Of a DNA stretch of 64,000 nt, positions 30,430-46,870 are shown piece by piece. Positions within the stretch are counted from its first letter, which is position 1; every line of letters begins with the position of its first letter. The notes beneath the pieces were generated by a model, which was not told the DNA's origin, did not search any database, and saw only the letters and a program-made list of their open reading frames with translations. Source of the stretch: Hysterangium stoloniferum (Eukaryota > Basidiomycota > Agaricomycetes > Hysterangiales > Hysterangiaceae); the NCBI GenBank assembly GCA_015178975.1, contig WHVD01000120.1, positions 124,001-188,000 on the forward strand, written 5' to 3'. Position numbers and translations under genes: made by a program.

Positions 30430-32228
30430 AGTATGAAGAGATCCCTTTGTCCATCAAAACATTCAACCTCCTCACCAAACTCTCCTCCTCAGGCATATAG
30501 ACAACCCTCTCAGAAAATGCCAGGAAGCCGTGGAGGACAGGGATTGGGGTTTTATCTCACACTGCCTCGCACACAATTTCTGGTTCTGGAGATTGTGAAA
30601 TTAAATTAATGATGATGAGCCCCTTATTAGCCTCAAGGTGCCATGAAACACGAAAATGTCTGATTTCGGGCATTGAATTAGTATTCTGATAGCCGAATCA
30701 TTTGAGACAACCGGTCCGCGATGGTGTAACTGTGAACTCACTGCAGCCTTTTAACCCAGATGGAAACAATGATATTAATTCGATCAATGTTTTCTGCCAG
30801 CAATGTGACATCCTTAAATAATGCATCGAGTTCATCTAAGATGATTGAATAAGTGATGGACCGAGAAGAGTAGGCACACACAAATTAATCGATGTTGGTC
30901 TGTAAAACATCAAGCGCGATATCCAATAGAGTTCCATAAATGCTGTGGAGCCAAGGATCCCGTGTGAAACAGCAGGAGAAAATCGATATTTGCTGGCAAA
31001 TCCATTCCATGTGTTCAGGTTGGTTTCGATCGTATCTGCATATTTCTCATTTAGGCCATTCTCCAAAAACAGCAACGGTAAAACCTACGACCTCAACCAG
31101 AATTTGAAACAGTTTCTAATCACATTGAGATCCTGATGTGACAGGCGCTGTGAATCATACACCTCCTTAATAATGGAGGTGAAACAGTAAGTAATAAGCA
31201 AATGTTCTGAAGTGGTGAGAGTGGCAGCTGACGGGCTACAGAGATATTTGCCAAGGTGTGATATGAATATCGAGGCAACAGCATAGCATTCCCCAGCAAG
31301 TTGCGACCTGACCAGGGCAGTGTAGAGCATAGGAACCATTTTAGCTGGCTCTTCCTTGATAAACACCATGAGCGTAATTACATATGCCATCTCTACTATG
31401 ACTTTTCCGATCTTCGCTTCTTCACTAGTGCGAAACCGGTATATAAAGGTGACATACGTATTCATGAGAAGCCACCTCCCCAGATATCAGATTTTACGTG
31501 GGTAAGATGGTCTTCATTAAAGTAATTTCACATCATCAGAAGCGAACATGCCTCAAGAGATCTACCCCCTCTTTAACTATTATGATCATTTGCCGGACAG
31601 TTAGCTGTTTGTTAAGCAGTCTAGTCGTGGTCATTTCCTCGTGTGTGTACCTGAGCCTGAGGGCAATTCTTCGGTACTCCTCCACACGTCACGTGTTGAA
31701 CAAGTACCTTCCCACCACAATGGATATATTGGTGCCGTACAGTAGATTTGTCCCGATCCACTCCATTTCCAGACCACAAATATAACCGGGCTCGGCTTCC
31801 ACTTCCACAGGATTATGAATAACGGGTTCCATCCATGCCGCTATGGCATCGCTCTCAACGTCGGACATGCCTTGATTAATTCTTGGTGATTCCAAAAAGC
31901 ATCGTGGCAATTCTACACAAACTGCAAAATCAGGACACTAAGCCGGAAAAAAAGTCCGATACCTGGAAGTCAATTCTCGAAACAAAAGATTAACATACCC
32001 GCTGTTGAACCCATGAATCAAGTGCGTCCTTGCTGATCGATATATGGTCGTCATGACCTGGTGTGTGGTACCAGAAGCCATGACTCTACATTACACGCCC
32101 ATTGTCTCTGGAGTATGCCCCGAAATTGACTTTCGAGGACCGTGATCCATTGAGATTCCAGGGCAACAAAATGGGGGTAGTTCTTCAACATGGTCAGGGT
32201 GACTGGGTACTACCTCGTGGTCAGACAT
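30430..32228 (-). pseudogene. Module A gene, copy 6
   Basis: Minus-strand A copy truncated at its 3' end by the KDZ element. Exon 1 starts at 32228 and is shortened by an in-exon deletion near 32,170; exon 2 is at about 31,900-31,540 (RINQGMSDVESDAIAAWMEP), exon 3 at 31465-31085 (TSEEAKIGKVIVEMAYVITL, open for 126 residues), exon 4 near 31,000-30,750 and exon 5 near 30,740-30,450. Exon 4 has frame damage (GATTGAATAAGTGATGGACCG). It is closest to copy 9 at 55-57 kb: the two share details in exon 3 (YRFRTSEEAKIG/YRFGTSEEAKIG, RLSHQDLNVIRNCFKFWLRS). Confidence 0.55.
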
Positions 32229-32469
32229 GGGGAACATGAGATATAGACAAGAGGCGTGTCACAAGAACAGAAAAGAGAATGGTTGACAAGGTTCATCTGG
32301 CATTTTCTATGTTTGTGAGACACCGCTTTGAATGCAGTCCAAATTGCCAAATAACAGTGGTCTACTAAGTCACTGCCCTGCATCCGCAAGTACTATTAGC
32401 CGAGATAAGCTTTAAACGCCGGGAGTTATAACATAGTGTTATGACAACGGTAAATACAGAAAATAATGT

Positions 32470-32765
32470 TGGAATTGGTGATGAAACCACCCTTTTCTTA
32501 GGGGCAGTTCACCTATTTCTTCACTTTTCATGGGAGGATGATAGTTGTGGACCATGTTTTTGGAGGTTAATGCATGCCAGAACCAGTATACACCTAAACT
32601 AGCATCCTACCTACTATGTCAGAAGGTGATTCACTAACTGACACATTGATTAAGACATAAATACTTATATTACAAGACTATTACCACCTTGTTGATTGGT
32701 ATTACAATAAGTCAACTCATACTATTTTTAATAAATAAGACATTAATTATGAGGATAAACTGAAA
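32470..32765. repeat. Insertion shared with 4.1 kb region
   Basis: About 290 bp inserted in a module B copy. The part 32,590-32,762 matches 4105-4250. The inner edge TGTTGGAATTGGTGATGAAACC resembles an LTR or MITE end but no partner end is seen. Confidence 0.4.
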
Positions 32766-33756
32766 AAGACAAAAGCTGTCAACTATGTACAAAACTGGTT
32801 TGTTCTTTTATCTGAATATGTCTGTGCATATCTACAAGGGACTTTGTACTTGGTGTTCATCCAAACATCAGTGAAGGAACCATTTCTTTCTATCCTTCTG
32901 CCGATGTACCGAGTGGTGCAGCTGAGTTGTGGACCATCAGGATTCCCTCTTCTTCATTTCTTTGCTAGTACCCAAGTGGGTTGTAAAGGTGCAATAGGTC
33001 TTCATGAGAAGCCATTTCACCCAATATCGTATTTTACACAGGTAAGATGGTCTTCATTAAAATGATCTCAGCATGCAATAAATGGATTTTACCAGAAGAG
33101 GACAGGCCTCAATAGAAGCAGACCCTCTTGAGCTATTGTGCCCAATTGCCGGACAGTTAGCTGTTTGTCAAGCAGTCTAGTCACCATCGTCATTTCTTCA
33201 AGCGTGTACACCAGCCTTCATGCAATTCTTTGGTACTCCCCGACATCTTGGTACCATACAATAGCTTTGTCCCGATCCACTCTAATGCCAGACCACAAAA
33301 GTAACCGGGGCCAACTTCAACTTCCATTGGATTATGAATAATGCCGTCCACCCACCTATCCATGGCGTCTCTTTCAAAGTCGGACATGCCTTGCTCAATC
33401 CCTGATGAATCCAGCAACCCTCGCGGTGGTTCTAGGGAAGTTGGAAAACCACGGCACTAGACAAAAGAAAAGTGCAACATATTGTAGTAGATGCTCGAAA
33501 TGAAAGATTAATATACCAGTTGCTGAACCCATGAATCAAGAGCATCCTTGTTGATTGGTGCATGCTCATCACGACCTGGACTGTGATAACAGAGGCCGTG
33601 GCCCTGCCTATTACATGCCCATAGTCACTGGAGTATGCCCCGAAAGTGACTTTGGAGGACTTTGATCCTTCAAGATTCCAAGGAAGCATGTGAGATCAAT
33701 GGGGGTACCTCTTCGATTTCATCAGGGTGACTGGGTACTACCTGGTGGTCAGACAT
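32766..33756 (-). pseudogene. Module B remnant plus module A copy 7 (exons 1-2 only)
   Basis: From 32,766 to about 32,950 the sequence is module B. It joins a scrap of A exon 3 (33,000-33,060), then exon 2 (33417 to about 33,110, GIEQGMSDFERDAMDRWVDG, with an internal deletion removing the RRVEEY helix region at 33,235-33,240) and exon 1 from 33756. Exons 3-5 are missing. Non-functional fragment. Confidence 0.5.
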
Positions 33757-33789
33757 GGGGAATGTGAGATATAGAGAAGAGGTGTGTGG

Positions 33790-35061
33790 CACCGGAAAAA
33801 CCCCTCTCTCCAAAATATTTTAGGATCCATTGTAGAGCCTTATCTTATATAAACTTTAATAATCTCTATTGGATCCTTGTAAGATTTAAAATTGGTTAAG
33901 GATCCAAAAGGTAGGTGGAGGGTGATCAGGTGTACATAGGATCTTTTAAGTATCAACCATATCATTAAATATAAACTCCTTCAAATTTGTATAGTCCAGT
34001 GGGATTCTGTATCCCTTTATATTTCCTGTGACTTGTCAGAGGGTGATCCAATTAAAAATCCACAAAACTCCTGGATGTGGTTGCAGGATTTAACATCACA
34101 TAGAACATGTGCATAATCAATCAACTTAAAATCCCATTCACATCCCTGAATTTGATGGAATTACAAAATGATATAGAATCTGTTAGATGGTCCACAATTG
34201 AGTTAAACACTCCTTTGTTCCAACATGCAGAGAACAAAGGGAGTTTATATTGGAACACAGCACCAGGAAAAACCCTTGCTCCAAACCTTTTTAGGATCCT
34301 CAGTAGAAGCGTATTTTATGTAAACTCTGCCAATCACTCATCGGCTCCTTAAATGATTTAAAGTTGGTTAAGGATCCAACATGTGATTGGCAGGTTTAGA
34401 ATCCAATGAACTTTTCCATCCTTAAAAGGTCCATAATGGAGTTAAAATTGGTTAAGGATCTAACATGTGATTGCAGGGTTTAGAATCCAATAAACCTTAT
34501 GATCCTAAAAAGATCCCTAATCAATTTGAACTCTTATAAGGATTCAATGGATGACTATTGGAGTTTAGATAAAATACAGCTCTACTAAGGATCCTAAATT
34601 TTTTTGGAGAGGGAGGTTATCCCAGTGAACAGAGAGTTTAACTCAATTGTGGACCATCTAACAGATTCTATATCATTTTGTAATTCCATCAAATTCAGGG
34701 ATGTGAATGGGATTTTAAATTGATTGATTATGCACATGTTCTATGTGATGTTAAATCCTGAAACCACATCCAGGAGTTTTGTGGATTTTTAATTGGATCA
34801 CCCTCTGACAAGTCACAGGAAATATAAAGGGATACAGAAGCCCACTGGACTATACAAATTTGGAGGAGTTTATATTTAATGATATGGGTGATGCTTAAAG
34901 ATCCTTTGTACACCTGATCACCCTCCACCTACCTTTTGGATCCTTAACTAATTTTAAATCTTATAAGTATCCAATAGAGACTATTGGAGTCTATATAAGA
35001 TAAGGCTCTACTATGGATCCTAGAATCTTTTGGAGAGAGGGGGAGAGGGGTTTCCCCAGTG
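33790..35061. mobile_element. Foldback DNA element with long inverted arms
   Basis: Ends CACCGGAAAAACCCCTCTCTCC and, reversed, CACTGGGGAAACCCCTCTC; the arms stay complementary for about 350-450 bp inward (for instance the stretch around TCCACAATTGAGTTAAAC at 34,192 and its complement at 34,637). Many GGATCC hexamers lie in both arms. It is inserted between A copy 7 and the following module B, whose sequence resumes with TCACAAGAATGGAAAGAG. No clear target duplication. Non-coding, so mobilised in trans if at all. Confidence 0.7.
34261..34627. mobile_element. Nested smaller copy of the foldback element
   Basis: Begins CACCAGGAAAAACCCTTGCTCC and ends GGTTATCCCAGTG, the same terminal pattern as the outer element, and lies in its loop. 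Flanks AACACAG and AACAGAG are similar but not a clean duplication. Confidence 0.6.
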
Positions 35062-35827: not shown

Positions 35828-38531
35828 CTATGATTTCTGAAAGAAGTCAGTTATAACAGTTTCTTTCAGACTCGTCGTTGCTTCGAGGTGGAGCTGCCAT
35901 TTGAATGTGCCCAGAATTGCTTCGAATTTGCGTGTGATGGGGTCATTCCTGTCATCAATGTACCTGTTGATGGTGGATACTGCCTTGAGAACATCACACC
36001 AGGTGGGGTGAGGTTCAATGGGTATATCCTCATCAACATTGTCTCCACCATTTATCTCGATTTTCTCGTGTGCCACAATTGAATCAATAACAGACTGATA
36101 GATTTCCTTGTCCGATGCCTCCATCAAGGCATGAGATTCACCAGCTGGGTTGAGAAGAGATTCAACATCCATTCGATTCTTCATCTGGAGTGCCCCTGTA
36201 GCAACCAAATCATTGAGTGCAGCCTCAACTTGCTTTTCAGTGTGGGCAACTGGATACATTTGGGACTTGGAGGAAGGATCATTGAGGAGTGAAGTAATTG
36301 GAATTAAAGGGTGAGACAAAGTGGGATTTATTTCAGGCAAGATTCCTGCTTTGCACCAGCAATTGCAAATGGTCGTTGTGTCGACATCATGCCAAGAAGC
36401 ATCTGCTATTTGCATTGCTTGCAACTGATTGATGTCATAGATTTGAGCCAGTGTTATACCTTCGTCATAACGATCAACAGCCTGTTGAATGAACCTGGTA
36501 CGGTAGTGGGCTTTAAAGCATCTGATGATACCTTGGTCATTTGGTTGGACATGTGCAGTGAGGTTTGGCTCGAAGTTTTCAACTCGGATATTTTGAAGGT
36601 TGGTAGGAACAATGTGGCCAGAAAATTTATCTTGAAAAAGAAGTATTTTTCGATTTTTGTCTCCAAGTTCGTGATCCCACTGCTGAATCCAGTCTTGATA
36701 GAGTTGTGCAGTCATCCAAGCTTTTGCATTATTTTGGTAGTAAAACCCCAATTGGATTCCGGTCTTCTTGTTGAAAGCTCGTAGCTCTGCTGCTTCCCCA
36801 ACGATGAAAGCTGGGAGTTTCTCAGACCTGTCGGCATTTGTTGTGAATGTGTATGTCAACCTGAACTTTTTGCTTTTGACTCCTGATTGTTTATGATCTG
36901 ACAGGCCTCTGTCTGGTACAAGTCTATGCATTGGAGTCAGATATGGAGGTAGAAATAAGGAAATAGGTATGTACCCATAAACAAGACCTGTTTCATCCAT
37001 GTCATCCATGTTAAAGATATCACGACGCTCATATTTGTACTTTATAATAAGCTCTTGAATCCATTTTCGCTCCCTCTCCTCCAGTGTCAGCATGTGCTGA
37101 TGCGGCTTCCCCATGTCTCTTCATCTCCTTCAAGCCATTCCTGTCCTTGAAATGTGCCAACCAACCATTGCTCAATGTCAGTCTCTCATCTTCAGGAATA
37201 CCCACCAAGTCTGCAAACTGGTTCCATTTCTGGCGAAGGACTTCCCCAGTAAGCAGAATTTCATCACCCATGGCCTTCAAAACCCATAAATACATCATTT
37301 CAAAAACCTCTGGATTGGTACGACCTGTTCCCGGATGTTTCAATATCCGACTTCCAATCTCCGACTACAGAACATCAAAGTTACCGTATCATCTGCATTC
37401 TTCTCTTGTTCCACATTTGGTAATTTGTCCATTGACAAGTATTCACTCATTTGTTGTTATATTCCCATTTCGGAATATTGTCTCCCTAATATGTCTTATT
37501 GTATTTCTGTTTTAAGAACACTTCCGTTTCCGTCTTATTATGGTCTTAGTTTGTAGTACAATAACGAGTAGACTTATATTAGTTTCCGTGAATTTGTACT
37601 TTACCTTAGATCTGATATCGACTTAGTTTCTTATTCCTCCTCCCGTCTTTCTGTATGCTCGATATTCGGAACTCTTCGGAACTCTGAATATCCGTATCTT
37701 CCATCGTAAGCCTTAGCCTTACTTCCGAAATTAAGGACTTTGAGCGTTTGCGTAGAGGCGCAGCACATAAGCTGAAGCCGACGTCCTGACCCTATCCACT
37801 AGTTTCCGACTTCCTGGTGACTTTCCAATAGTTCCAGAATAAGTTCCCGACACGGCACTTAACACGGATGCTCAGTCTGTTGAGCTCATTTCATCATCTG
37901 GTCACTTTGGTGGTTTGCCTGTTCCCAAAGCCCATGCCATTTTGTTTCTTCTTTGATCCATGCTGAGACTAATGGCTGTTTGATCTTAAGGTTTGGGTAG
38001 ATTGGATTGAAATGCTGAGCCATCTTTGATTGGTTTTGGCCATTTTTGTGGTGCCAATCAAGGATTTCTATGCGCTGAGCCAATGTAGCATTTTCTTTCT
38101 TTGTAAAAGTATGAGCAGTGACTGGCTTATCAGATTTCTTCTTAGGTGCTTTAGGTCCTTTCTCGTATATGGAATCTTCACAGAGTTATTAGTAATTTGC
38201 TTTTCTCAGGCATTAAAAAAGTTGTACATTTCTGTTTGTTTCCTGCAACCTTCACCAAGTCACCAGCCCACTCCCTCAGCTTCCTCACAATTGCCTTTCC
38301 ATTTTCATCCAAGCATTCAAGCCCTCACTCATAGTCTGAGGCTGACTCCAAGGTGTCAAGAACACATTGCTTATCAATAGTGTTTGCTTCATTGTCCAAC
38401 CAGTGCCCATCTGATGACGAAATGGTTTCTGCCCTAGCTAGCTTTGCACCAAGTTCCTTCTTGTGAGTCTTGATTGTGTCTGTAAATTTAGAAAGCCCTT
38501 TCTTAAGAATTTCAAGTGGTCTAGGAGCCAT
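35828..38531 (-). pseudogene. pogo-type transposase (CENPB HTH plus DDE_1)
   Basis: Reads on the minus strand from ATG 38531. N-terminal region to a TGA at 38,325, where relatives have arginine (SDYE-stop-GLE). A probable 52-nt intron (GTACAAC to GTGAAG, with TACTAAT inside, near 38,215-38,165) restores the frame into KKKSDKPVTAHTFTKKENAT and the first HTH (LAQRIEILDWHHKNGQNQSK). A solo LTR then splits the gene; beyond it comes the second HTH (GWLAHFKDRNGLK). A one-base shift near 37,085 and a 51-nt intron (36,924-36,974) follow, then the DDE domain: NMD-DMDETG (a six-base duplication), LLFQDKFSGH and HVQPNDQGIIRCFKAHY, so three aspartates remain. Ends ITDFFQKS. Two in-frame stops, a frameshift and an insertion make it inactive. 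Confidence 0.85.
37336..37864 (-). mobile_element. Solo LTR inside the pogo transposase
   Basis: A 529-bp segment bounded by TG and CA (minus strand starts TGTTAAGTGCCGTGTCGGGA and ends ATATTGAAACA) and by a 4-bp direct repeat CGGA. Removing it with one repeat joins QQTEHPG to TGRTNPEVFEMM in one frame, the expected continuity of the transposase. A 4-bp rather than 5-bp duplication leaves slight doubt on the exact class. Confidence 0.75.
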
Positions 38532-39436
38532 ACTATCCTTGGATATGGATAATAAAAGCTCAGTAGGTTCAATCAACAAAAAACTATAGATGTGACACAT
38601 TCTATCAGCCATGGACACATATTTCAAACTCAGCTCAATAGGGTTGTCATATTAATATTTTTGAGGGGAAAAAAAATTGTATAAACATTTACTTGGGGGC
38701 TATTCAGTAGGTGCAGTGGTGCATCATTGTGATGAGCTAACAATGATTGATTATTTGACAATAAAATTAAGGGACTACATCTAATTCAGTATGGGTTTTG
38801 TTATGTATTTTTAGCTTTTTTCTGATTTTTAAACAATTTCCCCTAACAAATTGCGAAAACAAATATTCAAATGTAATTATATTGCAACAATTAAATTGTA
38901 CAATATTTGTTTGATTTATCCTGAATTTATACAATTTATTTTGTATTTTTATCTAATAAATTGAGCAAGTTATTGAATTTCTACTTTTTATTCTTTTTTG
39001 ATTAATATGTCGGCGACTCAGCACTTATTCACAACACGTGAGTAATCATGTGATATTCACATGACATTTCAAACTCCAACGCTGACAAAACGCGATGCGA
39101 AATAATCATGCATAATCAAGGTAATATATATATATATTTATATCATTATAATAAAATATTATATTTATAACTAACTAAAAATAAATATAGTAATTATAAT
39201 AATATAAAGACGGCCACCTGTGTTTATTACATGGCACGCTGGAAACTCCTTACAACGAGTGATAGCCGTCACAGCAAGTGACAGTTGTCACAAGGGCGCG
39301 CGACTGTCACAACATGTGACAGTCACAAGATGCGAAGAATGTCATGTGCACCCACAGGTGCAAGAGCATTATATAATCATATATGCTATTACAGCAAAAA
39401 CCGGAAATCTCTGGAACATTCCAGTGGCTGCCAAAG
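38532..39436. other. Internal pogo sequence left of the gypsy insertion
   Basis: AT-rich, with no gene. It includes TATATATATATTTATATCATTATA (about 39,126) and a cluster of GTCAC/GTGAC motifs at 39,257-39,328. Confidence 0.5.
39257..39328. promoter_or_regulatory. Cluster of six GTCAC/GTGAC motifs
   Basis: Within 72 bp the pentamer GTCAC or its complement GTGAC occurs six times (or with one mismatch), in both orientations, partly as palindromes (GTGACAGTTGTCAC, CTGTCACAACATGTGACAG). Such spacing is typical of multi-site protein binding; the binder is unknown. Confidence 0.4.
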
Positions 39437-40156
39437 TGTTAAGAACTAGAAACTGACTAATATCGGTGGCTGACAGGGACCGATCGGAAGGACTTGGCTT
39501 CAGCTTATGTGCTGCGCCCTCGCAAATATCCGTAGGATGTCCTTAAATTTCGGGCGGGTGAAGACTAATCCTAGTGAGTACCTTTCGGCGTGATACCGAT
39601 CGGAATCGAAGGACAAGTCGAGCGTCGGGCCAAGGGGTCGGGGCCAGGAGTCGGCGAGCGCACGCGAAGGTGGATGGGGGGATTCTTAGTATGAGACTGA
39701 TACAGGTGTATGGGGGTATTCTGAGTCGATATTCTGATTGCCTAGTAACTACAATTACAGCGGGTTCATATACAAGTAACAGGCGTCTGGAAAATACTAA
39801 TGGGGAGAAGGGCGGAACACGGTATTAACAATAAGCTTGACTAGGAACGGGAAGTTTATGATTAGTTCGGAAGCCGATGATAACCGAGAGCGGGATTACG
39901 GTAAAAGGAAATGGTTCGAGGACTACAAATATAGATAGACATATGCGAAACATAAGATTGAACGGATCAACATAATAAAGGGGACGTATCAAAGTTTGAC
40001 CAGACAATAAGAGTTATTTGACGTGGGCGTAAATGGAGTTTGATCTTCGCGAAACATTCGTCAGCTTCGGGGCCGATGGTTTCCGAGAGGATGACTTGAA
40101 ACGTTGACAAGTGGCGATAACCTCGGGGCCGATAGGGTTGTGACACGGTCGTAACA
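39437..40156 (-). repeat. gypsy 3' LTR
   Basis: 720 bp, starting (minus sense) TGTTACGACC and ending CTTAACA. Seven differences from the other LTR, all transitions, five in CpG/TpG/CpA context. Confidence 0.95.
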
Positions 40157-40160
40157 GTAT

Positions 40161-40170
40161 CTCCCCTTTT
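40161..40170 (-). promoter_or_regulatory. gypsy polypurine tract
   Basis: Minus-strand AAAAGGGGAG, four bases from the 3' LTR, in the position of the plus-strand primer site of LTR retrotransposons. Confidence 0.75.
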
Positions 40171-40270
40171 GGCCGAAATCCCAAGGAGGCCGAAAATCTA
40201 GATCCCGTACGTAAAAACTTGTCGGGTACGGCTGGGTGTGTCAAACATCATGTGACTCGGCAAAAGTTTG

Positions 40271-40280
40271 CATATAAAAG
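40271..40280 (+). promoter_or_regulatory. TATA box of the antisense gene
   Basis: CATATAAAAG ends 50 bp before the ATG at 40,330, on the strand opposite to the retrotransposon genes. A pyrimidine-rich stretch (CCACTTCCCTTCCTTTAACC) follows, a common fungal start-site context. Confidence 0.6.
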
Positions 40281-40329
40281 TTTGAGAGTTCCTGGCGCTT
40301 GAAATTCCACTTCCCTTCCTTTAACCATC

Positions 40330-41269
40330 ATGACCATAGGCTCGGGGTCAAAGCCCTTCCCGGTTAGGTTAACAGTTGCGCCCATGTCGGCGCCGAGTGG
40401 TACGGCGAACGCGAAGGAGCGTCGGCGTATACTCGAGCAGAAGAAAAAGGCGCGTGAAGAGGAGGAGCAGAAAGAGAAGGAGGAATTGGCGGCCATCGAG
40501 GCCGAGGAAAAGAAACAGGCGGCAGAAGAGGCCGCGCGCAAGCACTGGGAAGCAGTGCTTGCAAAGAACAAGCAGCAGGAGGCCGATCGGGCGCGGGAGG
40601 AGGCGGCGAAAAAGAAGCGGGAGGGAAAAGTGAGTCGGCTCTGGTGTCTTTTGCGAACCTTACTGACAATATCTGTCAGCGCAAGGCTGCAACGCCTTTG
40701 GAGTCCGATGACGAAGAGGGAGAGGAGGACGAGGAGGATGCACCGGGGCCGTCGAGCCCCAAGGTGGGTTCGGTTTCCTAAAAAAAACTTCCTAAATAAT
40801 TTTTTTTCTATAGAAACAAAAGCAGGTCCCCAAGGTGGGGCCTGAAAATGACCCCAAGTGCAATCGGTGCACGAAACGGGGTCGAACCTGTCATCCCCGG
40901 ACCAATGGTCGGGGCCGCACTTGTCAAGAGTGCGCTGATCAGAAGCTTGGGTGTGTTTTCCCGGGGGCCGATGGCTCATTCCAGGAGCGACAGGCCGATG
41001 CTCTAGAAGAGCAAAACCGCCTCATGCGGACCTACTTCTCGGAGATGAGTCGGTACCGATATGAGATGTTGCAACAACAAGGGCTCATAACTGAGCAATT
41101 GCGACTCTTGGGCATCAGGCTGGAGAAACAAACCAGTGTTATCGAGTCTCTCGGTGGTCAACTTGAGCAGTATTTGGAAGTCTCGAGTTGCGGTGGGCAT
41201 GAAATTGGGGTTTCGGAGAAGGTCGGTGGTGTGGTATCGGTGGCTGTATGTGATCCGGTATATTGTTAG
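40330..41269 (+). CDS. Antisense three-exon Zn2Cys6 cluster protein carried by the gypsy element
   Basis: Exons 40330-40629, 40680-40763 and 40814-41269 join in one frame across two 50-nt introns (GTGAGT to TGTCAG; GTGGGT to CTATAG), giving 279 residues. Residues about 28-100 form a highly charged E/K/R-rich coiled coil; exon 2 is acidic (SDDEEGEEDEED); exon 3 has six cysteines spaced C-x2-C-x6-C-x10-C-x2-C-x6-C, the exact pattern of fungal Zn2Cys6 DNA-binding clusters, followed by a second coiled coil (QADALEEQNRLMRTYFSEMS). It has its own TATA box and ends tail-to-tail with pol, overlapping its last 131 bp. No stops or shifts, unlike pol. Possible roles: regulator of element transcription, Gag-like nucleic acid binder or self-limiting factor. 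Function is not known from the sequence. Confidence 0.8.
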
Positions 41270-42213
41270 GAACACAAGGTTCTAACATAGATACATGAAA
41301 TACCGGGTGCACTGCACGCATGTTGTCGGGGAGCCGAAGCGTCCATGAAAGCGTGCCGGCTTGTGCTATAACTTCAAAAGGACCTAAATATTTTTCAGAG
41401 AGCTTCTTAGAAGGTCTAGTAGTTCGGAAAAACTCGGCTTTAACGAATACTCGGTCTCCGATCTTGAAATCAGGAGGTGGAAGTCGGTTTTTATCCGCAG
41501 ACCGTTGGTATCGTTCTTGAGCCATTGCGATAGTTTTACGAAGTTCTTGATGTAGCTCGTCGAGGTTTGTAACAAAGTCTTGAGCACGGGCGGATGCGAG
41601 ATCGCGTTCCGGGTGGATTGCGATGTTGGGGTTGTAGCCTTTATTTGTGAAGAAAGGCGAAATGCCAGTAGTGGCATTTGGTGCGTTGTTGTATGCGAAT
41701 TCGGCCAGCGGTAGTAGTGATTTCCAATTGTCTTGTTGATAGTTGCAATAGACACGGATGTATTGCTCCAAGGTTTGATTCATGCGTTCGGTTTGTCCAT
41801 CGCCTTCCGGGTGATAGCCCAAAGTGAAATGTAACTTCATGTCTAGTGCTTTTCCGAGTGACCTAAAGAAGTGAGAGACAAACTCGGATCCGCGATCGGA
41901 TGTGACATGCGACGGAACGCCATGCTTGGAGAATACGTGGGTAACGAATAATTCAGCTAACTGTACAGATGTTATCGTGTCATATGTTGGAATGAAAATA
42001 CTTTGCTTTGAGAGCCGATCCACAACAACTAGGATTGCTGTGTGACCTTCGGATGCCGGTAGGTGCTCGATAAAATCCATAGAAATCGAGTTCCAAGGTT
42101 TTTCCGGTATCGGTAATTGTTTGAGTAGGCCATATGGTTTGTGTCGCTGTGATTTAGAGCGTAAACACGTAGTACAGGATTTACAATAGTGCTTAACAAA
42201 ATCTCGGATGCCC

Positions 42214-42307
42214 AATTAGCTCTTTTGAAAAGAAAGCATCAGCAGAATCCTTCAAGAAAGATGCAGATTTTAAGGAAAATTGGGTTATTTTTTTATTTCT
42301 ATTTTTG
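42214..42307. mobile_element. 94-bp AT-rich insertion in pol
   Basis: Splits the family sequence TWP|GIRDFV of pol. Minus-strand borders GCCCAAAAATAG and CTAATTGGGC form an imperfect inverted repeat (GCCCAA/TTGGGC). It lacks GT-AG borders, so it is not a normal intron, and 94 is not a multiple of three, so it shifts the frame. Possibly a very small MITE-like insertion; no second copy was spotted in the window. Confidence 0.6.
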
Positions 42308-44777
42308 GGCCATGTATATTCTCTTCTAATGAGTGAGAGGGTCTTATTGAGGCCGAAATGTCCTGAGATTGGGTGGTCGTGCTTATGTTGTAGGATTCGC
42401 AGCCGAAGGGTGTCGGAATCCGGTACATAAATGCGATTGTCAAGTCGAATGAAACCTTGTGAGTCTAATGACCATCGGGGTTGATCGGGGTCGGACGGGT
42501 TATCGAGGTGTGCTTTGGTGACTGGGTCTAATGGAATTGCCGATAGTATGTCTTGATGTAACTTTTCGGTATCCATAAGGATAACACTTCGCAAGACTGG
42601 ATGAATGAGGTAAGTGGCTCTGATAGACGCGGACAGTTGTTCCGATGAAAACATAGGTTTGAAATTATGCGGGTTAACTGTGGCGTAGTCGCTACTCCCC
42701 TCTTTAGGATAGACGTCCCATCGTCTAGTCATAGCGTCGGGTTTTCCACCAAGGCGGCCGGGACGGAAACGAATTACCATGTTGAAAGCGGAGAGGTATT
42801 CGGACCATCGAGCTTGTCGACGGGTGAGAAGTTTTGTGGTTGAAAAGTAAACTAAATTTTTGTGGTCTGTAATAACATCTACCGGGTGGGTTGAGCCTTC
42901 CAAATAATGTCGCCATGTCTTGAAAGCTTCAAATATTGCGAGTAGTTCCTTATCGTGAACATCATAGTTGAGTTCGGGCGCCGAAAATGTGCGAGACAGA
43001 AAAGCTACTGGGTGTACTTCACCATCGGTGTCCAGAATGGACAATATCGCAGCAAGCGCATAGTCCGAGGCATCGGTTTCCACAATGAGTTGAACGTCGG
43101 GTTTCCAGTGCGACAAAATAGGGGCAGATGTAAAGGCACTTTTCAATTCCTGAAATGCCAATCGGCATTCTTCGGAGAAATTCCACGGGGTGTCTTTGCG
43201 AGTAAGACGAGTGAGCGGAACGGTAATTTTTGAGTAATTGTGAATGAAACGACGATAAAAATTGGCAAAGCCTAAAAAGGACTGAATATCTTTAACCTTT
43301 CGGGGTTCCGGCCAATCTTGAATGACTTGAATTTTAGAGTCATCCATGCGGAGACCGTCGGGTTCCATCATGAAGCCTAAGTATTCAACCGTGTCGACAT
43401 CAAAAGAACATTTTTTACCATTCGCAAAAAGACCATGTTTTCGGAGTCTTCGGAGGACTTCACGGACGTGTTCATCATGAAGTGTAGGGTCTTCGGAGAA
43501 GATGAGGATGTCGTCTAGGTACACAATGACAAAGACGTCAAGTAGGTCGGAAAAGACGTCGTTGATAAAACGTTGAAAGACCGACGGAGCGTTGGTGAGG
43601 CCGAAAGGCATCACTAACCATTCAAAGGAACCATAGCGAGTGCGAAAAGCTGTTTTCCATTCGTTACCTTCAGCGATCCGAACCAAATGATAGGCGTGTT
43701 TGAGATCTATCTTTGTATAAATTCGGGCCTTCCAAGGGGCGTCGAGTAAATCGGAGATTAATGGTAATGGGTACTTGTCTTTTCGAGTAATCGCGTTTAG
43801 TCCTCGAAAGTCAATGCAAAGTCGAAGGGAACCGTCTTTTTTCCGAACGAATAGGACAGGGGCTCCATAGGGAGACTTTGAGGGTCGGATAAAACCTATA
43901 GCCAAATGTTCATCCAAGAAATCTCGGATAGCCGATAATTCGGACTGCGAGAGAGGATAAACCGGGCCTAGGGGCGGATGTGAACCATCTTCAATATCAA
44001 TTTTCAAATCGTAAGGCCTGTGAGGGGCGAGTCGATCGGCTTTTTGTTTACTGAAGACATCTGCAAATTCATGGTATTTTTTAGGAACACCTTCTAAATC
44101 TGCGATCGGTTCAGTCACCGGGGATGCGAAGCGACCAGTGACTTCGTCAACTTTAAGATTGACTGTAAATGCTCAGGAGCCGTCCAACTTGATGGCTCTC
44201 ATAAAAGCTGCGGCGTTTATTAGAGAGATGGGCGGCGGAGAGCTCGGATTTGCCACGGGGGCCGGAGGTGCTGTAGAAGCCATATTTGCCGAAACAGGCG
44301 GAAACGGACCAGTCGTATCGGGTGCCGACGGGGTTCGGAAATGGATACTGCCCAATACCCAATCAATCAACGGATTATAGCGGGTGAGCCAGTTATGTCC
44401 TAGAACCACGGAGCAGCTCGAGTCCAACTGTGTTACAAAAAACGTAACTGTCTGAAAGGTTCCACATGGGAACCGAAGTCGGAGTTCGCAGGCTTGCGAG
44501 ATTACGGAGTTTGAGGTACCATCAAAAAGTCGGAGCGGAATCGGATCTATTGCATAGGTTTTCAACTGATTTTTTCTGGAAAAACTTGTATCTATAAAAC
44601 AATGGGTTGAACCTGAATCTATGAGAGCTCGAAAAGTGAAACTCCCGAGAGGTTCCGAAGTAAGATTTATGAACAAAGAATTAGGATCATACAATGCGGA
44701 TGCGTTAAGATGACAATTTTCCGGTGTGCGAGGAGATTCAACGCAACTCTCCAACCGCACAGAATCCAGAGAGTTGC

Positions 44778-46076
44778 TTAATCTTTTTTCGACTCGGCAG
44801 CCGGCTTGGCCGGTTGTGAGGTCGTGGCCGTATTGGCCGATCGGGCTTTTGTGGCTTTTGGGCATGCAGCGACTCGGTGTCCGGGATCTGCACACAACAA
44901 ACAAAGGTTGTTGTCCATTCGGCGTTGCTTTTCCTGTGGTAGGAGCTTGCCATCGGAGCCGAGTTTGCCAGTTAAGTCGGGTTTGTCTTTGTCTTGAGAC
45001 TTATTCGACTGTTTGCCCTTGCCTTTTTTGTCGTTAGACCCTTTGTTTTCGGACTTCTTATCGGAAGTCGAGTTGCCAGTTATATTGGTGTTTTGGTTAC
45101 CAGACTTGTTGGCATTCTTGTTGTCCGATGATTTTTTGTCCGACGGGTTTTCGCGACTGATTTCCGAACGTCGTTCCCAGTATCGAGCGTCTGCGTTTTG
45201 GGCTTTCAGGCGCATGAGAGGGAGGGTTTTCGGCTTGCCGGTCTCTCCTTTGGAAACTTCGTCTTTGAGGCGAGACGGAAGGCCGGAGTAAAACTGGGAT
45301 CGGAGGGCCGAATCGCCCCAGTCGCAACGCGCGGCGAGGTTGTTGAACTGGACGATATAATCGGTGATGCGCTGAGTGTCTTTCATTTTGAGATTAGAAA
45401 GCGTGGTTTCTGCATCGCCGGTTTGGTCGTAGGGGCCGAAGTTGGTTTCGAGTTCCTCGACAAAGGCATCCCAATCGTGGAGCCAATCGGGGTCTTCAGA
45501 GGTGAGGCCAGAAAATGCGGGTTCGAACCAGGCTGCTGCGGAATCCTTAAGGTATGAGAGTGCGAAGTTTACCTTTCGGTCATCCGTTGCGAATGCAGCC
45601 GGGCGGTCCCGAAAGTTGAATCGACATTGCATAAGAAATGTCGGCAATTTCTTCGGGTTTGAGCCAGTAAATGGCTCGGGTTTGTTGACTCGGGTTTGCC
45701 CAGGTTCCTTTTCCTTGATATTGCTTTTAAGGAATTCATTAAGGGATCCTAGTGTACCTGAAAACAATTCCCATGTTTCTTCAGGGTCGAGAGCCGGTTT
45801 CTTCTTTGCAGACTTCTTGGAGCCACTAGCCTGAGGTTGGTCGCCATCCTCGGGTTCGTGTTCCGAAACTGGTTGATTGTTAATCTCCTCAGTTGCTTCG
45901 GGATCGGTTGCTTCAGTTACTTCTTCAGCATCGCCGGTAATCTCCACAAAGCGAGATTCTTCGGAGGTTTCTGGTAGCGGGGTTCTCTGAGTAGCTCGGG
46001 CTGTATACAGGAAAGGAGACTTGAGAGTGGAAGATTCTGCTTCGCCGCTAGGCTTGGCATTTTTCCTCGGAGGCAT
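44778..46076 (-). CDS. gypsy Gag
   Basis: 432 residues, intact. Begins MPPRKNAKPSGEAESSTLKS; residues about 30-120 are an acidic low-complexity region; the retrotransposon Gag core contains the FALSYLKDSAAAWFEPAF stretch and the later MKDTQRITDYIVQFNNLAAR; a basic lysine/asparagine-rich tail precedes the CCHC zinc knuckle C-LL-C-ADPG-H-RVAA-C (C-x2-C-x4-H-x4-C). It ends SKKD at a TAA directly after an A6 run, where a -1 shift would lead into pol. Its intact state contrasts with the broken pol. Confidence 0.92.
   Translation of the reverse strand: MPPRKNAKPSGEAESSTLKSPFLYTARATQRTPLPETSEESRFVEITGDAEEVTEATDPEATEEINNQPVSEHEPEDGDQPQASGSKKSAKKKPALDPEETWELFSGTLGSLNEFLKSNIKEKEPGQTRVNKPEPFTGSNPKKLPTFLMQCRFNFRDRPAAFATDDRKVNFALSYLKDSAAAWFEPAFSGLTSEDPDWLHDWDAFVEELETNFGPYDQTGDAETTLSNLKMKDTQRITDYIVQFNNLAARCDWGDSALRSQFYSGLPSRLKDEVSKGETGKPKTLPLMRLKAQNADARYWERRSEISRENPSDKKSSDNKNANKSGNQNTNITGNSTSDKKSENKGSNDKKGKGKQSNKSQDKDKPDLTGKLGSDGKLLPQEKQRRMDNNLCLLCADPGHRVAACPKATKARSANTATTSQPAKPAAESKKD
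44784..44789 (-). promoter_or_regulatory. Putative -1 frameshift site
   Basis: Minus-strand TCG AAA AAA GAT TAA: six A's directly before the gag stop, with pol continuing in the -1 frame (GTC GAA AAA AGA TTA). Slippage on the A run would give Gag-Pol. It is not a textbook X-XXY-YYZ heptamer in the gag frame. Confidence 0.4.
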
Positions 46077-46114
46077 GTTTAGACGGAAAATGCGAGTGTG
46101 AAATCAGAATATAC

Positions 46115-46834
46115 TGTTAAGAACTAGAAACTGACTAATATCGGTGGCCGACAGGGACCGATCGGAAGGACTTGGCTTCAGCTTATGTGCTGCACCCTCG
46201 CAAATATCCGTAGGATGTCCTTAAATTTCGGGCGGGCGAAGACTAATCCTAGTGAGTACCTTTCGGCGTGATACCGATCGGAATCGAAGGACAAGTCGAG
46301 CGTCGGGCCAAGGGGTCGGGGCCAGGAGTCGGCGAGCGCACGCGAAGGTGGATGGGGGGATTCTTAGTATGAGACTGATACAGGTGTATGAGGGTATTCT
46401 GAGTCGATATTCTGATTGCCTAGTAACTACAATTACAGCGGGTTCATATACAAGTAACAGGCGTCTGGAAAATACTAATGGGGAGAAGGGCGGAACATGG
46501 TATTAACAATAAGCTTGACTAGGAACGGGAAGTTTATGATTAGTTCGGAGGCCGATGATAACCGAGAGCGGGATTACGGTAAAAGGAAATGGTTCGAGGA
46601 CTACAAATATAGATAGACATATGCGAAACATAAGATTGAACGGATCAACATAATAAAGGGGACGTATCAAAGTTTGACCAGACAATAAGAGTTATTTGAC
46701 GTGGGCGTAAATGGAGTTTGATCTTCGCGAAACATTCGTCAGCTTCGGGGCCGATGGTTTCCGAGAGGATGACTTGAAACGTTGACAAGTGGCGATAACC
46801 TCGGGGCCGATAGGGTTGCGACACGGTCGTAACA
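46115..46834 (-). repeat. gypsy 5' LTR
   Basis: 720-bp LTR, upstream of gag in the minus sense; followed on the right by the target duplication CAAAG. Confidence 0.95.
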
Positions 46835-46870
46835 CAAAGTAATAGTAGTTAGTAGATACTAATAATAGAT

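Follow-up and report, generated by a model that had tools for sequence, protein, structure and literature searches.

The window analysed here, a 64,000-nt stretch of a Hysterangium stoloniferum contig (assembly of 111 Mb in 554 contigs), contains on its minus strand a Gypsy element that spans positions 39437-46834 and that we assign to family 1. Its two LTRs are 99.0% identical over 720 bp, and the element is flanked on both sides by the 5-bp target duplication CAAAG (39432-39436 and 46835-46839). With its LTRs, its gag and its pol of PR-RT-RH-IN order ending in a chromodomain, the family belongs to the Ty3/Gypsy chromoviruses, the chromodomain being absent from the window copy itself. The Chromo profile (PF00385) scored above the cut-off in the pol of family 3 (E 8.2e-7) and narrowly missed it in that of family 2 (E 3.8e-5, 24.0 bits for a cut-off of 25.1), and chromodomain-like residues are found in the pol of L009, another family 1 copy. 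The features of the window element are listed in Table 1.

Table 1. Features of the family 1 Gypsy element and of its antisense gene (positions in the window)
Feature	Position	Strand	Remarks
3′ LTR	39437-40156	-	U3 adjoins polypurine tract, ~40157-40170
Antisense-gene leader/promoter	40157-40329	+	TATAAA at 40273
Antisense exon 1	40330-40629	+	E/K-rich; same length in 20/21 other copies
Antisense intron 1	40630-40679	+	50 nt; GT-AG in 22/22 copies
Antisense exon 2	40680-40763	+	KRKA ... GPSSPK; basic clusters flanking an acidic run
Antisense intron 2	40764-40813	+	50 nt in the window, 47-59 nt in other copies
Antisense exon 3	40814-41269	+	six-cysteine zinc-cluster-like domain, linker, long helix; acidic tail missing in the window copy
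Deletion junction	41239-41247		9-bp repeat at both edges; private to the window copy among 22
Integrase ORF of pol	41139-42215	-	rve, SH3_Tf2-1 (Pfam)
pol: RT, RNase H, integrase start	42193-44118	-	Pfam
gag with capsid domain	44778-46076	-	Pfam
5′ LTR	46115-46834	-	LTR pair comparison

Elsewhere in the window, a solo LTR of family 2 (37316-37865), about 90% identical to the LTRs of the family 2 element L033, adjoins a pogo-like DDE_1 ORF (35828-37114, minus strand). A MITE-like long inverted repeat lies at 33801-35042, with arms of 268 nt (97%) and 146 nt (92%) and a CpG observed/expected ratio of 0.05, and within 31411-33787 a segment of about 0.85 kb (31411-32259) recurs at 32951-33787 with 74-87% identity and a spacing of 1518-1556.

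Between pol and the 3′ LTR, on the opposite strand, lies a small spliced gene. The sequence-only reading of this DNA had proposed it, and its antisense position, its TATA box and start codon (ATG at 40330), its two 50-nt GT-AG introns and a frame that stays open once they are spliced out were all borne out. The spliced product of the window copy has 279 amino acids, with the stop codon at 41267-41269, and the exact cluster CNRCTKRGRTCHPRTNGRGRTCQECADQKLGC (C-x2-C-x6-C-x10-C-x2-C-x6-C) begins at residue 144. The segment encoded by exon 1 likely forms a coiled coil, judging from its composition alone, and the basic clusters of exon 2 may act as a nuclear signal, which they resemble. Transcription would start at the gene's own TATA promoter beside the polypurine tract and run towards pol, and the transcript would undergo two splicing events. 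Pol is broken in the window, as had been noted, by 94 bp of extra sequence at 42213-42306 that have no counterpart in L009, and by a deletion.

This deletion also bears on the antisense gene itself. A genome search with the gene region, in which 40 of 631 candidates were scored, found it in at least 39 other places, one of them partial, and with the coding constraint described below this places the antisense gene above chance. We compared the window copy with 21 other copies of family 1, and all 21 carry 405-411 additional bp at window position 41247. The full 292-aa product is encoded by 15 of them and is broken in the remaining six. Because of the deletion, the window copy has lost the pol chromodomain and the final 19 acidic residues of the antisense product, for which 6 others are substituted; hence the window gene was wrongly taken to be complete and intact, since the deletion has truncated it. 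Its 279-aa length has the same origin, as has the fact that the 3′ part of the integrase ORF runs antisense to exon 3. The 131-bp overlap with pol does exist in the window copy, but the deletion alone created it there; where the gene is intact (15 copies), 95-100 bp separate its stop from that of pol, and we therefore rejected the overlap as a functional feature. The window feature is a truncated copy of a conserved accessory gene of this fungus's chromodomain Gypsy elements.

Several observations indicate that the protein is under selection. The GT-AG splice sites are retained in all 22 copies, window included, which agrees with the proposal that the introns persist since the sense genomic RNA cannot splice them. 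Intron 2 differs in length from that of the window in 18/21 copies and the exons (806 bp compared) in 2/21 (Fisher p 1.1e-6, a value that is only nominal because the copies are related). Among the 15 intact young copies of family 1 the mean dN/dS is 0.40. Two lineages of the family, A and B, represented by L019 and L029, differ by a dN of 0.227 and a dS of about 2.1, giving a dN/dS of about 0.11 by two methods, and the differences at codon positions 1, 2 and 3 number 57, 64 and 154 (154/275 at third positions). Of 12 pairs compared, ten were computable with NG86 and gave a dN/dS of 0.11-0.29, and nine gave 0.11-0.41 with YN00, dS being saturated in both pairs between families 1 and 2. These tests drew on gene models made for 17 of 25 places (those without a model being L039, L044, L047, L049-L052 and the family 1 place of L031). 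Nine of the 17 models were omitted (L030, L031b, L032, L034, L040-L043 and L046), the majority showing plain decay, a wrong assignment or truncation; among the eight copies used, L035-L038 are older, so that their dN/dS mixes element evolution with decay. Two outcomes that would speak against a stable antisense gene were looked for, namely copies that lack the ORF or are full of stops, and a dN/dS near 1. The gene is present in 21/21 other copies and intact in 15, and dN/dS is 0.11 between the lineages, in line with stable evolution inside the Gypsy element. In the decayed copies, the stops seem by eye to be mostly TGA, as CpG deamination of CGA would give.

The gene is not confined to family 1. 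Family 2 was detected beside L031, a family 1 copy, and its 8-kb element L033 has LTRs, gag, pol with a chromodomain and an antisense gene between pol and the 3′ LTR. Family 3 (L061) was chosen by its reverse transcriptase as a presumed control, not by an antisense gene, and likewise carries one at the same location, so that the gene is present in 3/3 Gypsy families sampled. Searches of the genome with exon 3 of families 1, 2 and 3, in which 150 of 412, 150 of 880 and 150 of 1341 candidates were scored, matched at all 450 scored places, that is, at least 450. For family 3, at least 19 places have a 100% identical exon-3 product, several of them a few kb from a contig start; this recent burst may limit the assembly.

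The products measure 292-300 aa in family 1, 339-347 aa in family 2 and 294 aa in family 3, and those of families 2 and 3 are 30-31% identical to that of family 1. Both intron positions are common to the three families, with intron sequences that are unlike. In five aligned products of the three families, the six cysteines, GKRKA and P-x-SP are invariant; the acidic tail is poorly conserved across families. TATAWA stands 56-57 bp upstream of the ATG in 13 of the 17 gene models (60 bp in family 3) and is absent upstream of the gene in L029, L036, L042 and L046. In reverse transcriptase and integrase, families 2 and 3 share 79-81% identity with the window element, and the antisense gene therefore evolves much faster than pol. 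Protein database searches, by a method that needs shared 5-residue words, returned two proteins only, both from Hysterangium stoloniferum; one of these searches scored only the candidates with most shared words, and all of them are blind to fast-evolving relatives. Altogether, our data establish the position of the gene, the retention of its splice sites, purifying selection on the protein and homologues in three element families.

The products of the window copy and of the three families match the Zn2Cys6 cysteine pattern, C-x2-C-x6-C-x(5-16)-C-x2-C-x6(-8)-C, with 9-10 residues between the third and fourth cysteines. Zn_clus (PF00172) gave no match in the products of families 1 and 2 and stayed below the cut-off in that of family 3 (E 0.95, 10.1 bits for a cut-off of 21), and we therefore call the product Zn2Cys6-like and do not place it as a member. 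TRP28 (PF04195) was without match in the Pfam scans of the three products, and sequence searches of the PDB and of NCBIfam returned nothing relevant. The structures predicted for the family 1 and 2 products have mean pLDDT values of 68 and 58, a low to medium confidence. When compared with the PDB by Foldseek, Zn2Cys6 domains made up 15 of 16 matches for family 1 and 9 of 9 for family 2, with individual E-values that are weak (0.11 and up). These data strongly suggest a Zn2Cys6-like DNA-binding protein with a long dimerisation helix and an acidic tail. Among fungal Zn2Cys6 factors, Gal4, Ppr1, Put3, Hap1 and Leu3 bind CGG triplets. Our product resembles them by the spacing of its six cysteines, the long helix that follows, the weak fold-level match and the CGG words described below, and differs by a Zn_clus score below the cut-off, a spacer of 9-10 residues between the third and fourth cysteines and its location in a retrotransposon.

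Comparison of lineages A and B revealed a distinct block at the 3′ end of the element. Between L019 and L029, pol is 97.5-100% identical at the nucleotide level over 16 successive 200-column alignment intervals, followed by one at 89.5%; identity is 63-75% in the eight intervals that cover the antisense gene and the adjoining U3, and 87.5-90.5% in the remaining LTR. In an identity matrix of 13 elements, including five copies of lineage A and six of lineage B, identity between the two lineages is 93.8-98.6% for pol as against 67.9-70.1% for the exons, 64.7-72.5% for the antisense promoter and 53.7-67.9% for the 177 bp of U3 proximal to the polypurine tract, and their proteins are only 67% identical. 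Inside the lineages, exon identity is 97.6-98.8% (A) and 88.6-99.5% (B). Pol of L029 is 94.8 and 94.6% identical to that of the older B copies L055 and L056 and thus no closer to them than pol of the A copies, for which identity to these two is 93.8-95.0%. As pol does not separate A from B, the 3′ block has a history distinct from that of pol, a result that template switching of the retroviral type can produce.

U3 and promoter evolve fast. Inside lineage B, U3 identity to the other B copies is 50.9-54.6% for L055 and, with L055 set aside, 72.2-74.7% for L056; in the promoter, L054-L056 share only 78.4-84.3% with L029, L057 and L058. Such differences speak against a strict unit. Co-adaptation of protein and U3 could maintain the block; linkage alone could account for a U3 that varies with the gene. 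From these alignments, we infer that gene, promoter and neighbouring U3 act rather like a single block of specificity set on a common pol. That the product might regulate the element's own LTR, as the sequence-only reading suggested, is plausible and gains circumstantial support, because gene, promoter and U3 differ together and CGG-type words occur over the element.

These words emerged when all 136 4-mers, counted on both strands, were compared with 400 dinucleotide-preserving shuffles, in one copy of family 2 and one partial copy of family 3 as well as in both lineages of family 1, with two copia elements and host DNA as controls. The top word is TCGG/CCGA in lineage A (158 vs 72.6 expected, z 12.1) and in lineage B (119 vs 58.2, z 8.7), and CGGA/TCCG in family 2 (142 vs 65.4, z 10.3) and family 3 (89 vs 38.6, z 9.1); across all words and shuffles, z peaked at 5.0. 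Both copia elements and three host stretches of 7 kb lack a comparable excess, their top words reaching z 3.0-4.1. The longer words are CGGAA in family 2 (77 vs 22.9) and CGGAC in family 3 (30 vs 8.9), and TCGG shows no excess in family 3 (28 vs 38.8). Among the sixteen 4-kb bins of the window, TCGG exceeds z 6 only in the pair in which most of the element lies, and the next-highest bin (z 2.8) takes in a piece of its 3′ LTR. Once trinucleotide content is taken into account, the excess shrinks to 158 vs 105 in family 1 and to only 142 vs 116 in family 2 and 89 vs 75 in family 3.

The excess in pol persists when codons are shuffled synonymously, with protein and codon usage preserved. For TCGG in family 1 we obtained 71 vs 40.8 in L019 (z 6.2), 73 vs 43.8 in L029 (z 6.0), 67 vs 42.0 in L011 (z 5.1) and 84 vs 46.4 in L016 (z 7.2), and for CGGA 75 vs 46.7 in family 2 (z 5.7) and 38 vs 21.7 in family 3 (z 4.3). 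The same test gave no excess for the pogo-like ORF or for two copia ORFs. Some counts point the other way: the pol of family 2 is also enriched in TCGG (56 vs 36.9, z 3.9) and that of family 1 has a smaller CGGA excess (z 2.6-3.2). In the gag of family 2 there is no clear excess of CGGA (23 vs 18.8, z 1.4), with CGGAA at z 2.9. In the antisense gene, z is 2.9 (L019) and 3.7 (L029) for TCGG, and for CGGA 2.2 (L033) and 1.4 (L045) in family 2 and 3.1 in family 3. At neighbouring codons that encode identical amino acids in two families, TCGG occurs 12 times in family 1 only and twice in family 3 only, as opposed to 5 and 14 for CGGA; the corresponding counts are 22 and 14 (TCGG) and 16 and 30 (CGGA) for families 1 and 2, and 10 and 2 (TCGG) and 11 and 13 (CGGA) for families 2 and 3. 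The words are spread through LTR, gag, pol and antisense gene with no concentration in the LTR. A reading as operators of the LTR only, to which an initial test on LTR and U3 had been favourable, was abandoned since gag, pol and the antisense gene are equally enriched. TCGG is common to lineages A and B despite their diverged proteins, and the difference in its flank (GTCGG vs ATCGG) is weak and was set aside.

The Gypsy elements are also rich in CpG, with observed/expected ratios of 1.15-1.22 in three family 1 copies, 1.15 in family 2 and 1.14 in family 3, whereas two copia elements have 0.32 and 0.31, and 30 kb of DNA from the window 0.77. In the same genome, Gypsy (L019, L033, L061) and copia (L059, L060) elements are thus separated by an almost fourfold gap, as if they pursued contrary strategies with respect to methylation. 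Three older copies have ratios of 0.81-0.97 over their whole loci, and 13 old copies have decayed strongly, CpG being lost to TpG/CpA. In these 13 copies, protection of the CpGs inside motifs is not clear (213/523 lost vs 471/1037 elsewhere, p 0.084), and in 11 copies 40% of TCGG/CCGA sites are lost, the third lowest of 10 contexts that range from 36 to 57%. Motif and other CpGs being lost about equally fast, dead copies decay at CpG either way and young copies are CpG-rich. This richness fits anti-silencing by the living element, but also any other cause, such as selection for CGG words.

On balance, we lean towards reading the window feature as a truncated copy of a conserved antisense gene whose product would be a self-recognising DNA-binding regulator, possibly with an anti-silencing role. 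The product would bind DNA as a zinc-cluster dimer and recognise CGG-type words whose flanks depend on the family: TCGG (family 1), CGGA/CGGAA (family 2) and CGGA/CGGAC (family 3). These would be the words over its own element, U3 included, through which it would control the transcription of the element or shield it from silencing. The antisense position may let the introns outlast reverse transcription and provide a promoter outside the sense programme. A more far-reaching proposal, which we put forward as tentative and rather unlikely, is that these chromoviruses carry an exchangeable self-recognition block, made of the gene and its cognate U3, and that each is filled with its own CGG-type word, the protein coating the whole length of the element against CpG methylation. 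The filling with TCGG, CGGAA or CGGAC would then have been achieved in pol partly via synonymous changes, and the coating would be the cause of a CpG ratio of about 1.15-1.2 as against 0.3 in copia.

Several alternatives have to be weighed against the regulator that we favour. Anti-silencing in the manner of VANC, in which the protein would coat its own element via dispersed words and keep CpG methylation or heterochromatin away for as long as the lineage remains active, is possible, if somewhat doubtful: the CpG ratios of the three families (1.14-1.22) agree with it, as do words in LTR, gag, pol and antisense gene, whose dispersal and family specificity recall the motif enrichment described for VANDAL elements (PMC5735166), but motif CpGs of old copies are without clear protection, the CpG comparison rests on two copia controls and the VANC motifs lie in non-coding tandem repeats, elsewhere than the words here. 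The enrichment may instead be a mutational by-product unrelated to the protein, stemming from CpG decay that spares TCGG or from the mutation bias of a former host. Such an origin would fit the strong CpG decay of old copies, families that could stem from different hosts, the word that A and B share despite their diverged proteins and the small excess beyond trinucleotides in families 2 and 3; yet TCGG/CCGA is not clearly spared, families of one genome prefer different words and the pol excess outlasts synonymous shuffles, and we consider it unlikely, though still to be reckoned with. We judge it fairly improbable that the protein is an activator of its own LTR comparable to Tat or Tax. An acidic tail after zinc cluster and helix is the layout of many Zn2Cys6 activators, and U3 varies with the gene, but the words are not concentrated in the LTR and the tail is poorly conserved across families.

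Lineages A and B, which share pol and differ in exons, antisense promoter and U3 next to the polypurine tract, also recall heteroimmune phages that escape each other's repression. By this analogy, the protein would repress its element via the cognate U3 and limit its copy number, and an element with a differing gene/U3 block would escape; a gene convergent on pol would suit such a role. For a repressor, however, a few operators would do, whereas the words extend over all of the element; the co-variation is explained by linkage, U3 differs inside lineage B too and, with at least 450 matching places in three families, copy number is hardly limited, so that we give self-repression no better a chance than activation. 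It is highly improbable that the antisense RNA is the functional product and the frame incidental. The transcript would indeed run from the U3 border and converge on pol, but copy-number control through antisense RNA alone, as once envisaged for this locus, leaves the protein constraint unexplained: dN/dS is 0.11, third positions are in excess, indels fall mostly in intron 2 and six cysteines are invariant at about 30% identity, all of which disfavours it. Just as little can be said for a host gene captured once that rides along as a passenger and does nothing for the element; its introns look host-like, but it is found in all three Gypsy families sampled at about 30% identity, with intron positions kept and constraint between lineages.

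Antisense genes of LTR elements have precedents. HBZ of HTLV-1 is spliced and has its promoter in the 3′ LTR; like our gene it is an antisense regulatory gene of an LTR element, but it encodes a bZIP protein of a retrovirus. HBZ and the antisense genes of HTLV are cited in a paper on the plant Gypsy elements Retand, Grande and RIRE2, which have antisense additional ORFs between pol and the 3′ LTR with a TRP28 domain (PMC11963269). The Retand-type genes are similar in location, in cross-family conservation, in a putative DNA-binding product and in the regulatory role suggested for them. They differ in that they belong to plant non-chromoviruses and encode TRP28 (PF04195), whereas here a fungal chromovirus carries a gene with two conserved introns and a six-cysteine zinc-cluster-like domain; the word "intron" was not found in the available part of their description (PMC11963269), nor was "antisense" in that of two fungal surveys (PMC3248453, PMC3411680). 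Our literature search brought up no earlier description of a zinc-cluster gene lying antisense in a Gypsy element of a fungus.

VANDAL elements are DNA transposons of a plant. The VANC proteins that they encode in Arabidopsis have their own enriched words, with binding and demethylation shown (PMC5735166). In both systems, short family-specific words are enriched in the protein's own element and protein and words diverge rapidly; the VANC motifs lie in non-coding tandem repeats (PMC5735166), whereas our words lie in LTR, gag, pol and antisense gene and are known from sequence alone. Closer in host range, TET/JBP genes of agaricomycete DNA transposons are thought to counter methylation-based silencing (PMC12730594). 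These too would be agaricomycete transposons equipped with a gene against silencing, but TET/JBP is an enzyme, its carriers are DNA transposons and the abstract claims no sequence specificity (PMC12730594).

Plant Gypsy elements have long been known to carry antisense accessory genes whose function has stayed unexplained. The three families of Hysterangium stoloniferum amount to a natural experiment within one genome, with diverged DNA-binding-like proteins, an enriched word of its own for each and a well-conserved pol, and the function of such genes becomes testable through binding assays. If the proposal of an exchangeable self-recognition block is true, these elements would be an LTR-retrotransposon counterpart of VANC, with a specificity that recombination can swap. 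If the product is indeed a self-recognising regulator, LTR retrotransposons too would be able to evolve sequence-specific self-recognition, which would offer a fresh perspective on the escape of fungal elements from methylation.
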